A DNA stretch of 10,170 nucleotides from Candidatus Pacearchaeota archaeon (GTDB taxonomy: Archaea; Nanoarchaeota; Nanoarchaeia; Pacearchaeales; GW2011-AR1). The stretch covers positions 1-10,170 of the forward strand of contig NZAS01000147.1 in assembly GCA_002686195.1 (NCBI GenBank), in the 5' to 3' direction. The notes below the pieces were generated by a model that searched no databases, had not been told where the DNA came from, and saw only the letters and a program-made list of their open reading frames with translations. Positions 8,794 through 9,951 of the stretch are shown in pieces (within the stretch, counting starts at the first letter, position 1; each line of letters starts with the position of its first letter). The position numbers were made by a program, and so were the translations under genes.

Positions 8794-9012
8794 TTAAACT
8801 GGTAGTTGCGCGGTTTTTGGTAAAAAGTTTAGTTCTCTTGCATTTGCTTCAATCTTTTCTTTAAGTCCCTTTGAAATTAAAGAACTGACTGATTCAGGTT
8901 CCACTCCCTCTTTTTCACAATAATACAAAACAGCATCCAGATGAGTAATTTGTTTTTCTTTTGCGATATTTTCGATAGTGTTTGCAAAAATCTTAGTTGT
9001 TGTTAATGCCAT
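8794..9012 (-). CDS. 33: gp33-like late promoter transcription accessory protein
   Basis: A 72-residue protein: TTTKIFANTIENIAKEKQIT, then HLDAVLYYCEKEGVEPESVS SLISKGLKEKIEANARELN and the C-terminal FLPKTAQLPV. The A.LYYC...G.EPE and LKEKIE..A.E.N.LP layout is what I know from short gp33-like proteins of T4-like marine phages. In T4, gp33 (112 residues) bridges RNA polymerase and the gp45 sliding clamp to activate late promoters; TATAAATA boxes in this window would be the targets. No strong Shine-Dalgarno precedes ATG 9012. A G-rich hairpin ends about 20 nt upstream, so translation might depend on RNA folding or processing. Confidence 0.8.
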   Translation of the reverse strand: MALTTTKIFANTIENIAKEKQITHLDAVLYYCEKEGVEPESVSSLISKGLKEKIEANARELNFLPKTAQLPV

Positions 9013-9032: not shown

Positions 9033-9056
9033 TGGGAGGCTAACCATAACCCCCCA
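9033..9056 (-). other. G-rich hairpin in the gene 33 leader
   Basis: In minus-strand RNA, UGGGGGG (9056-9050) pairs with CCUCCCA (9039-9033) around a 10-nt loop using one G-U pair. On the plus strand the same position would be an A-C mismatch, so the structure favours the transcribed strand. It is followed by AACTTTATAATT, not a true T-run. It could be a weak terminator, a processing site or a translation-control hairpin. The region 9057-9113 also holds a small stem (TCACC/GGTGA) and no credible ORF. Confidence 0.5.
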
Positions 9057-9113
9057 CGGATGTATTACGGCATCACCCGTCGATGTCACCCAAGCGGTAG
9101 GTGATAATATGAA

Positions 9114-9169
9114 ATGGAAGTATTCTGTTGCTAGGAACTCCCATAACCCCAGTTTCATCAATTATGCAG
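9114..9169 (-). ncRNA. diverged second copy of the tmRNA coding-piece 3' tail
   Basis: Starting in the last codons of the HTH gene, this reads CTGCATAATT, then ACTGGGGTT, then an 8-bp stem (9144-9137 with 9121-9114, one G-U) around the 15-nt loop TCCTAGCAACAGAAT. The tmRNA coding piece has the same CTGCATAATT, ACTCGGGGTT, and a 6-bp stem of different sequence around TCCTGGCAACAGAAT. Loops differ at one base while the stems differ at several positions but still pair, which indicates conserved RNA structure. No second tmRNA 5' end was found, so this is a tail without a body, possibly a duplication remnant or a stabilising or processing element. Confidence 0.75.
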
Positions 9170-9419
9170 AACGCAAAGCTGTATAACCAGCAGCGACAAC
9201 AGAACGAGGCGCAGTACCGACACGATACTTCCTATAGGTTTTCCCGTCAAATGACGACACACGATCATTCAAAAAAATAGAATATCCTTCTGAACGTAGT
9301 TTACTAATTACTGCACGAACATTCTTAACACCATAACGTGCGCTAATCTGTTTTGCGGTAAGTTCTGCACCACCTTCTAGTGCAGCGGCGACCTTAGCGG
9401 TCTGGGTCTTAGTAGTCAT
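9162..9419 (-). CDS. helix-turn-helix protein, probable DNA-binding regulator
   Basis: An 85-residue protein from ATG 9419 (MTTKTQTAKV). A winged-helix-type HTH is visible in AALEGGAELTAKQISARYGV followed by KNVRAVISKLRSEGYSIFLN, with a recognition helix around NVRAVISKLRSEG. The C-terminus is GKTYRKYRVGTAPRSVVAAG, then YTALRSA. Similar small HTH proteins occur, as I recall, in T4-like marine phages. The in-frame TTG 9425 is only 4 nt from AAGGAG (9435-9430); ATG 9419 is 10 nt away and is the likely start. It lies in the tmRNA operon, directly after the coding piece, and its stop leads into the second tmRNA-tail copy. The target is unknown. Confidence 0.8.
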   Translation of the reverse strand: MTTKTQTAKVAAALEGGAELTAKQISARYGVKNVRAVISKLRSEGYSIFLNDRVSSFDGKTYRKYRVGTAPRSVVAAGYTALRSA

Positions 9420-9478
9420 AATCAATTATCTCCTTTATCATGACAAATTTGAATTGCCTCACAGGCAATCCTTAAAGT

Positions 9479-9645
9479 GAGGGTATTCTGTTGCCAGGAA
9501 CCCTCGGAACCCCGAGTAATTATGCAGCTAGTGCATAATCCTCATATGCCCAATTATCATTGGCATTTCTTAATATGATCTATAAGGCGATCACTCCACA
9601 ATTCTCCACATCCCTATACTTGCCAGTCGATCCTATTTCGCCCCC
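9479..9645 (-). ncRNA. ssrA: tmRNA coding piece (5' acceptor strand, tag reading frame, 3' hairpin)
   Basis: The minus strand begins GGGGGCGAAATAGGATCGAC, a typical tmRNA 5' end (acceptor strand followed by a GGAUUCGAC-like D region, one U short). It carries the tag frame GCC AAT GAT AAT TGG to GCA CTA GCT GCA TAA (9564-9520) and ends in a hairpin (9505-9500 with 9484-9479, loop TCCTGGCAACAGAAT). The CCUGGCAACAGAA loop is, from memory, typical of the coding-piece end of alphaproteobacterial two-piece tmRNAs. GGGGGCG pairs with CGCCTCC of the acceptor piece (9848-9842), including G3-U70, the AlaRS identity pair. The acceptor piece lies upstream, so the gene is circularly permuted. Ends are inferred; processing between the pieces is needed. 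Confidence 0.9.
9520..9564 (-). other. tmRNA proteolysis-tag reading frame ANDNWAYEDYALAA
   Basis: Fourteen codons and TAA read ANDNWAYEDYALAA, preceded by an A-rich stretch (AAGAAAT) as expected upstream of a resume codon. With the alanine brought by the tmRNA, the appended tag would be AANDNWAYEDYALAA. The AND start and ALAA end match known tags, the ALAA end being the ClpXP/ClpAP recognition determinant. ANDN is common in alphaproteobacterial tags. Confidence 0.9.
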
Positions 9646-9646
9646 A

Positions 9647-9826
9647 TCAAAAAAAGATTAGATATAATATACCACCAATGAGAAAAATATCAGCACATAT
9701 GCTCCAAACAATATAAGCTCTTAACATCCACTTAGCAATTTCTTTCCAGCACCTTACATATGAATAGGTTGTGCATAGAGCAAGGGTCTTCATCATTTTG
9801 AATTCCCTTTTGATTTTTTCCCACAC
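9647..9826 (-). CDS. small single-span membrane protein encoded between the two tmRNA pieces
   Basis: From GTG 9826 (AAGGAG 9836-9831, spacing 4) the frame gives 59 residues: WEKIKREFKMMKTLALCTTY, then SYVRCWKEIAKWMLRAYIV and WSICADIFLIGGILYLIFF. An alternative start, ATG 9796 with AAGGGA 7 nt upstream, gives 49 residues. The C-terminal 20 or so residues form one transmembrane span, preceded by a basic, Trp- and Arg-containing segment. The stop (9649-9647) is separated by one base from the tmRNA coding piece 5' G (9645), so the ORF fills the intervening segment exactly. No family is recognised. The paired ribosome sites argue that it is real, but at this length chance is possible. Confidence 0.6.
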   Translation of the reverse strand: MWEKIKREFKMMKTLALCTTYSYVRCWKEIAKWMLRAYIVWSICADIFLIGGILYLIFF

Positions 9827-9837
9827 TAATCTCCTTA

Positions 9838-9903
9838 TGGTGGAGGCGAGCGGTACTGCCCCGCTGTCCTGTACAATTTTCAGTTTGCATCATCAAATTG
9901 TCC
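9838..9903 (-). ncRNA. ssrA: tmRNA acceptor piece (T-arm, acceptor 3' strand, CCA)
   Basis: From the predicted start near 9903 the RNA reads GGACAATTTG, a 7-bp hairpin (ACAATTT/AAATTGT), then a T-arm AGCGG-GGCAGTA-CCGCT (9865-9849), acceptor strand CGCCTCC (9848-9842), A73 and encoded CCA (9840-9838). Geometry is exact: 5-bp stem, 7-nt loop, 7-bp acceptor. The acceptor strand pairs with GGGGGCG at 9645-9639, giving G3-U70. The T-loop GGCAGTA departs from TTCRANY. There is no tRNA 5' half nearby, so this is not an ordinary tRNA. UUG..CAG in this piece may form the P2 helix with CUG.CAA of the coding piece, which I could not confirm. Confidence 0.88.
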
Positions 9904-9905
9904 TA

Positions 9906-9936
9906 TATTTATACCATATTTAGGCCCTTTTGTCAA
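9906..9936 (-). promoter_or_regulatory. combined sigma70 and T4-late promoter of the tmRNA/33/59 operon
   Basis: On the minus strand, TTGACA (9936-9931), a 17-nt spacer and TATAAA (9913-9908). The -10 is part of an exact late box TATAAATA (9913-9906). The start would fall at about 9903-9901, exactly at the proposed 5' end of the tmRNA acceptor piece. An overlapping early and late promoter would express the tmRNA and the downstream HTH and 33 genes throughout infection. Confidence 0.8.
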
Positions 9937-9951
9937 TACCCTTTTTAGATT

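Follow-up and report, generated by a model that had tools for sequence, protein, structure and literature searches.

Transfer-messenger RNA (tmRNA) in a T4-like phage is already known. The phage Melnitz carries a two-piece tmRNA, two-piece forms make up 53 of 133 unique phage tmRNA structures, and a permuted tmRNA occurs in 17 of 47 Melnitz-like contigs, according to the accessible part of that work (PMC9004378). A protein gene within a tmRNA gene has been described as well, in the intron-form tmRNA, where the T-loop region is interrupted by a self-splicing group I intron that carries a homing-endonuclease gene (23 of 844 introns); as far as the accessible part of this 2025 survey goes, permuted intervening sequences hold a transfer RNA-Ala and a repeat, and protein genes are described only in the group I introns (PMC11915505). 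In the open-access literature we found no report of a permuted tmRNA whose spacer contains a protein gene. Here we describe such a case on contig NZAS01000147.1, a 10,170-bp virus fragment that forms the window analyzed throughout. A permuted two-piece tmRNA gene lies on its minus strand (9476-9940), and the spacer between the two pieces holds a conserved open reading frame (ORF) for a small predicted membrane protein. Judging from sequence, we consider it probable that each transcript of this phage gene serves either as tmRNA or as messenger RNA, an either-or fate proposed because a predicted helix joining the spacer ends covers the ribosome-binding site of the ORF.

The tmRNA gene itself, phage-encoded and of the alphaproteobacterial type, is confirmed. 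It had been proposed in a sequence-only reading of the window, which named covariance models and ARAGORN in permuted mode as suitable checks. Both pieces are covered by Rfam matches above the curated cut-offs (RF01849, alpha_tmRNA, 9940-9476, 112.9 bits with a cut-off of 50, E 8.1e-31; RF04321, tmRNA_permuted, 9900-9520, 98.5 bits with a cut-off of 47, E 9.7e-19), ARAGORN returns a permuted tmRNA at 9934-9429, and the virus record contains T4-like genes for a tail tube, baseplate hub, single-stranded DNA-binding protein, helicase loader and late-transcription coactivator. The acceptor piece (9838-9899, minus strand, from sequence and Rfam; 5′ boundary approximate) consists of an uninterrupted T-arm, the acceptor 3′ strand, A73 and the CCA at 9840-9838, and its 3′ end reads CGCCUCC-A-CCA. 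The coding piece (9479-9645, minus strand, from sequence, ARAGORN and Rfam; 3′ boundary approximate) begins with GGGGGCG, the first G at 9645, and includes the tag reading frame found by ARAGORN together with its stop (9520-9564, minus strand) and a 3′ hairpin placed by Rfam (9476-9519, minus strand). The tag, ANDNWAYEDYALAA, ends in a degron of the ALAA type. As the sequence-only reading had it, and as can be read directly in the sequence, the ends of the two pieces form an acceptor stem of seven pairs including G3-U70, followed by A73 and CCA. The gap that it put at about 190 bp is a spacer of exactly 192 nucleotides (nt; 9646-9837, minus strand), with the linker UGAU adjoining the coding piece; the ORF filling this gap was overlooked. 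A search of the window with Rfam, taking E up to 1, gave no group I intron.

That reading would have been abandoned had the stem halves ceased to pair in related phages, and they have not. All seven acceptor pairs are present in 163 of 169 de-duplicated phage tmRNAs (five pairs in four, six in one, four in one), the tag frames of relatives are intact, and the T-stem is fully paired in every one of the 163 phage tmRNAs fitting the T-arm pattern, with AU, UA, CG and GC all occurring at its first two pairs as compensatory changes. When ARAGORN was run on 235 loci, window copies included, it returned 152 tmRNAs, 151 of them permuted. A gene for SmpB is absent from all five complete phage records, and the phage would presumably use the SmpB of its host. 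Ribosome recycling and a degron of the phage's own, both put forward in the sequence-only reading, are possible roles for this RNA. The earlier suggestion that tmRNA is at most rarely described in T4-like phages does not stand, given the published two-piece tmRNA of Melnitz and its relatives (PMC9004378, accessible part).

The nested ORF (9647-9826, minus strand) has 59 codons, starts with GTG behind AAGGAG and stops with UGA at 9649-9647, which ends one base 5′ of the coding piece. Its translation is VWEKIKREFKMMKTLALCTTYSYVRCWKEIAKWMLRAYIVWSICADIFLIGGILYLIFF, with a predicted membrane helix (hydropathy 2.2 over 19 residues), and an inner ATG at 9796 behind AAGGGA would yield the last 49 residues. 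The ORF belongs to a family, here F1, whose WSICAD motif is invariant in 14 aligned sequences. Selection on the protein is apparent from the ratio of nonsynonymous to synonymous differences (pN/pS, as raw proportions), which is 0.23 in 20 F1 sequences (19 distinct, 34 codons) and 0.18 in a set of five (44 codons), and the other two frames of the same stretch carry stops in every sequence. Two further families of nested ORFs give 0.24 (F2, five sequences) and 0.09 (F4, three sequences, two with identical protein). F1 is also nearly confined to the spacer. Among the best 80 of 281 relatives, found by protein alone, 76 loci, encoding 52 distinct proteins, are flanked by the two pieces of a tmRNA gene, as seen by pattern in 72 and by covariance model in four. 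Two of the remaining loci are cut by contig ends and two lie outside: L502 has F1 directly before a tmRNA whose own spacer is without F1, and L481 holds a free copy with no tmRNA match.

The protein database contains 197 F1 proteins; none of the 120 listed carries a Pfam domain, and those with a name are called hypothetical. Ten nested proteins gave no PHROG match at E up to 0.01, two more likewise gave none, and three free-standing relatives of F2 and F5 gave none at E up to 1. In tblastn searches of the isolate phage collection, no match was returned for F1 (E up to 1), F2 (E up to 0.1) or F5 (E up to 0.01). For another family, F11, there are weak matches (E 0.4-0.7) in Aeromonas and Stenotrophomonas phages.

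Nested ORFs of this kind extend well beyond the window. Among 169 de-duplicated phage spacers the median length is 88 nt, and 75 are 100 nt or longer. For 88 bacterial spacers the median is 34.5 nt; only two are that long, and in these two, the bacterial spacers to which the ORF test was applied, no such ORF was found. In 53 of the 75 long phage spacers, 60% or more of the length is taken up by an ORF behind a Shine-Dalgarno sequence, compared with a mean of 2.20 in 100 shuffled sets (standard deviation 1.52, maximum 7). The excess holds with a stricter Shine-Dalgarno list (35 of 75 versus 1.85 expected) and with the Shine-Dalgarno condition dropped (66 of 75 versus 13.4 ± 3.1 shuffled). By local alignment the 53 ORFs fall into 18 families, and 33 of the 53 include a segment whose hydrophobicity would suffice for a membrane helix. 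Spacers L508 and L017 each contain two consecutive ORFs, the first in L508 lacking a clear Shine-Dalgarno sequence. These counts carry the stamp of how the sets were assembled. The phage tmRNAs are the matches listed for two exact patterns in IMG/VR plus the loci of relatives of a winged-helix gene that often neighbors the tmRNA, and the latter route enriches F1, to which 25 of the 53 ORFs belong. The bacterial set comprises the matches listed for one exact pattern, because of which the betaproteobacterial and cyanobacterial types lie outside the comparison. Spacers were located by pattern, which misses copies with other ends. The window copies (L001, L002) were left out and near-duplicates above 95% were merged, which took 308 rows to 257; the 75 long spacers still contain one identical pair.

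These data bear on the most skeptical explanation, that a long AT-rich spacer is open by chance in an ordinary tmRNA or a decaying captured one. It would account for the ten nested proteins without a PHROG match and for the failure of F1 to match the isolate collection. It is contradicted by pN/pS values of 0.18-0.24, by 53 ORFs where 2.2 are expected, by free-standing homologues and the 197 database proteins, and by the intact acceptor stems and tag frames of relatives. We give this explanation next to no weight. A chance origin of the ORF is contradicted by the shuffled sets, purifying selection and free-standing homologues taken together, and that the spacer holds a real nested protein gene is, on the sequence evidence, near certain.

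The free-standing homologues come from two families. Among all 73 relatives of F2, 49 loci are in spacers and 24 are free, with neither tmRNA piece visible; one of these free copies, L594, ends at a contig edge. In 37 of the 49 spacer copies the last residues and the stop are borrowed from the tmRNA 5′ end, and the free copies have stops of their own. For F5, the best 80 of 312 relatives comprise 12 in spacers, 65 free and three with an upstream acceptor-like sequence only. When 20 loci counted as outside were checked with covariance models, 18 had no tmRNA match and two, L613 and L622, had one upstream, the F5 gene lying 32 nt and about 210 nt, respectively, downstream of a compact tmRNA; of 20 loci counted as nested, all had a match except L607. 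The genes of a single family can accordingly lie within the tmRNA or next to it.

This distribution would fit a rival explanation, the spacer as a passive, compact slot in which small phage genes settle and share the tmRNA promoter while tmRNA and protein are made from different transcript copies without regulation. The 18 families that occupy the spacer, the paired ORFs in L508 and L017, and the free or downstream copies of F2 and F5 all sit comfortably with a passive slot, as do stop codons that the junction sequence provides for free and a spacer-end helix that is general in bacteria (both described below). The near-confinement of F1 to the spacer does not. Nor does the predicted occlusion of AAGGAG in all 30 spacers that begin with it (unpaired probability at most 0.22), which would set translation from that site against folding, whether or not this competition is selected. 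We regard the passive slot as a possible but not a favored explanation.

The helix in question, which we call the clamp, is formed by the bases right after CCA pairing with the bases that end just before a linker of four bases, which reads UGAU in 58 of the 75 long phage spacers. From folding and covariation, its 5′ strand in the window is AAGGAGAUUAG (9826-9836, minus strand), which contains the Shine-Dalgarno sequence of the ORF, and its 3′ strand is CUAAUCUUUUU (9651-9661, minus strand), which doubles as coding sequence for the end of the nested ORF. In F1 the 5′ strand contains a Shine-Dalgarno sequence, AAAGGAG, and the ORF end is encoded by the 3′ strand. Over 12 clamp pairs, the 75 long phage spacers have standard pairing in 85.1% of cases versus 64.0 ± 1.4% with shuffled partners, and slid registers give 43-54%. 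Both the minimum free energy structure and the centroid of the window precursor form the acceptor stem plus the clamp. The predicted probability that the Shine-Dalgarno sequence is unpaired averages 0.01 in the precursors of the 30 spacers beginning with AAGGAG and rises to 0.57 once the 3′ clamp strand is removed; for the window the values are 0.05 in the precursor, 0.09 in the excised spacer and 0.55 without the 3′ clamp strand.

A plausible model built on these predictions is a switch in which tmRNA maturation and translation of the nested gene are mutually exclusive. One precursor would be made from the phage promoter. While the polymerase is still in the spacer, the Shine-Dalgarno sequence would be free, and a ribosome that loads there would read the ORF and keep the clamp open. 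If no ribosome loads, the clamp would close and bring the acceptor and coding pieces together, and host enzymes would release the two pieces and destroy the message. These enzymes would probably be RNase P and tRNase Z, both suggested for two-piece tmRNA processing in the accessible part of an earlier report (PMC3985003). Output of tmRNA would then rise when free ribosomes are scarce, that is, when rescue is needed. A more ambitious version is that the switch sets itself by sensing free ribosomes, that in families whose stop lies in the mature tmRNA processing strips the leftover message of its stop, the tmRNA in this way policing what its own gene produces, and that this arrangement serves as a slot for at least 18 small phage gene families; we offer this version tentatively and would not bet on it.

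A number of observations weigh against the either-or reading of the transcript and the switch. In 22 of the 75 long phage spacers no ORF qualifies. Isolated phages of nine kinds were compared, and seven of the kinds lack an ORF under this criterion; the 98-nt spacer of MD18 contains a 22-codon frame starting with TTG, missing in its near twin DSS3_MAL1, and Melnitz is the only isolated kind with a clear nested ORF (54 codons, ATG behind GGAG). The clamp is also found in bacterial spacers (80.7% of eight pairs versus 51.4 ± 2.3, n = 48), and since these lack such a gene, the clamp did not arise for the switch; on sequence grounds it is a general part of permuted tmRNA. Covariation within F1 is weak (93.3 versus 91.9 ± 0.7, n = 25; in a larger set 91.9 versus 90.1 ± 0.6, n = 38, one of 500 shuffles reaching the value), because the clamp varies little there. 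The window fold as a whole is not unusually stable (z -1.41 versus shuffled), and the excised spacer alone also hides the Shine-Dalgarno sequence (mean unpaired probability 0.07 in the set of 30). In 22 of 25 F1 spacers the Shine-Dalgarno sequence in the clamp precedes an out-of-frame start, that of a short leader frame, and the first start is in frame with F1 only in the window, L144 and L305. The F1 ORFs behind such a leader have a second Shine-Dalgarno-like run in the loop.

The positions at which nested ORFs end suggest yet another way in which the two products could be linked. Of the 53 ends, 29 are 0-1 nt before the expected processing cut, 13 are inside the mature tmRNA, 11 are 7-15 nt before the cut and none is farther. 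Ten of the 13 inside the tmRNA stop 13 nt in (AUG GGG GCG AAA UAG in those read). Where the stop is inside the mature tmRNA, the message would lack a stop codon after cutting. By sequence, then, RNA processing would remove the stop in 13 of 53 nested ORFs; the window falls in the group of 29, its UGA at 9649-9647 preceding the expected cut at 9646/9645. We considered stop placement as a sign of selection and rejected it, because two of the three frames already meet a stop in the conserved junction UGAU|GGGGGCGAAAUAG, UGA in one and UAG in another.

A control like that of ArfA can be drawn from these positions: the cut that frees the 5′ end of the coding piece would sever the message at or before its stop, the released tmRNA would rescue the ribosomes and have the product tagged and destroyed, and protein would accumulate only when tmRNA activity runs short. 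There is precedent in E. coli, where RNase III cleavage makes the arfA message a nonstop RNA and trans-translation represses its expression (PMC10107115, accessible part), and the 13 stops within the tmRNA and the 29 ORFs with UGA 0-1 nt before the cut are in keeping with it. Against this stand the window UGA, which ends one base short of the cut and would stay with the spacer, allowing termination to proceed, and the 11 ORFs that end 7-15 nt before the cut. The ends may merely reflect the conserved junction, and the nested proteins tested match no PHROG family, rescue factors included. We find ArfA-like control unlikely.

The promoter from which the switch would be driven is itself distinctive. 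A promoter-like element (9906-9936, minus strand) combines TTGACA (9936-9931), 17 nt in sigma-70-like spacing, and a second box, TATAAATA (9913-9906), which we take to be the T4 late-promoter consensus. This composite promoter could, as far as its sequence indicates, serve both early and late transcription. TTGACA-N16-18-TATAAATA is found upstream of 91 of 167 phage copies versus none of 87 bacterial copies, with long and short phage spacers both represented (46 of 74 and 45 of 93). A separate consensus scan did not list the element because that scan demands T at position 6 of the second box. The shared phage layout suggests that the tmRNA is a settled phage gene and speaks against the recent capture of a host gene, which had earlier been floated as an explanation.

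Permuted tmRNAs are also present in several isolated phages. Pelagibacter phage HTVC008M (NC_020484.1) has a match of 90.6 bits over 210 bases (145161-145370), too compact to hold a nested gene. The permuted tmRNA has no annotated feature beneath it in Rhodobacter phages RcSimone-Hastad and RcXuper, Roseobacter phage DSS3P8, Ruegeria phage vB_RpoS-V10, Phaeobacter phage MD18 and Mesorhizobium phage Cp1R7A-A1, and the spacers of these six (L515, L517, L518, L519, L520, L521; HTVC008M is L316) are 93-111 nt. The annotation of RcRudolph (L516) places a hypothetical protein over the permuted tmRNA. Two of the loci mentioned above for F1 have neighbors of their own to report. Shortly 3′ of the tmRNA in L502 is a manA RNA (1813-1987, RF01745, 72.3 bits). 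In L481 (1245-1640) the F1 relative directly follows a gene matching phrog_451 (unknown, E 3.9e-13); the same gene has a weaker match to phrog_937, annotated as hemolysin, and an esterase/lipase-like gene is also on the contig, a single hint that we did not use.

Downstream of the tmRNA in the window is the winged-helix gene (9162-9425, minus strand, 87 codons, PF14090, phrog_4973), a frequent neighbor. Among the best 80 of 267 of its relatives, ARAGORN found a tmRNA at 37 loci and none at the other 43, and covariance models run on 19 of these 43 recovered a tmRNA in eight. Directly after the stop codon of this gene lies a second copy of the tmRNA 3′ hairpin (9113-9160, minus strand; 31 nt at 84%), which, like the nested ORF, the sequence-only reading had missed. 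It scores 23 bits with alpha_tmRNA, under the cut-off, and a similar motif (at most two mismatches) is 3′ of the winged-helix gene in 12 of 80 related loci. Further downstream, as in Melnitz, comes the gp33-like late-transcription coactivator (8794-9012, minus strand, PF16805). Its leader contains a conserved RNA element (9034-9080, minus strand), an H-type pseudoknot followed by a hairpin, with no Rfam match at E up to 1. In 61 variants from phage loci including Melnitz, its first helix (P1, ACGG/CCGU) pairs at 87.3% versus 69.8 ± 1.7 shuffled and its second (GAUG/CAUC) at 98.4% versus 90.1 ± 0.8, with compensatory changes present, the helices having been chosen by eye from the sequences scored. 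Elements of this type precede gp33-like genes in many loci and other genes in some, and are in tandem in L071 and L110.

Permuted tmRNA has so far counted as an RNA gene whose spacer is simply discarded, and in many phages a selected protein gene occupies that spacer. Such genes are easily overlooked because the place is already labelled ssrA, as in Melnitz, and the arrangement offers a rule for finding hidden small phage proteins. If the switch holds, one transcript would have two seemingly incompatible fates, and a phage would have a simple means of coupling ribosome rescue with the supply of ribosomes. The reason for a tmRNA in lytic phages becomes a question testable with cultured phage.

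How does this locus compare with known systems? SgrS/SgrT is a dual-function RNA in which one transcript acts both as RNA and as message, and the mature RNA keeps its ORF; maturation of the tmRNA described here would remove it. E. coli ArfA is alike in being a small protein, expressed in dependence on tmRNA from a message that RNA cleavage deprives of its stop, going by the accessible part of the source (PMC10107115), but its gene is outside the tmRNA gene, its cut is made by RNase III rather than by tmRNA processing, and the window stop precedes the cut. The intron-form tmRNA likewise has a protein gene inside a tmRNA gene, placed there in a T-loop intron and here in the spacer of a permuted gene (PMC11915505, accessible part). 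Closest is Melnitz. Its accessible report names no ORF inside the tmRNA, and the words intervening and nested are absent from that text (PMC9004378); the Melnitz and Melnitz-2 records annotate only SsrA at the tmRNA. Melnitz differs in having a glutamine riboswitch 3′ of its tmRNA, a position at which Rfam finds no riboswitch in the window at E up to 1. Like the window, it has a permuted alpha-type tmRNA in a T4-like phage, and the two share a gene order in which the tmRNA comes before the gp33 coactivator, helicase loader, thyX and single-stranded DNA-binding protein. By our reading, the Melnitz spacer, like that of the window, also holds an ORF.

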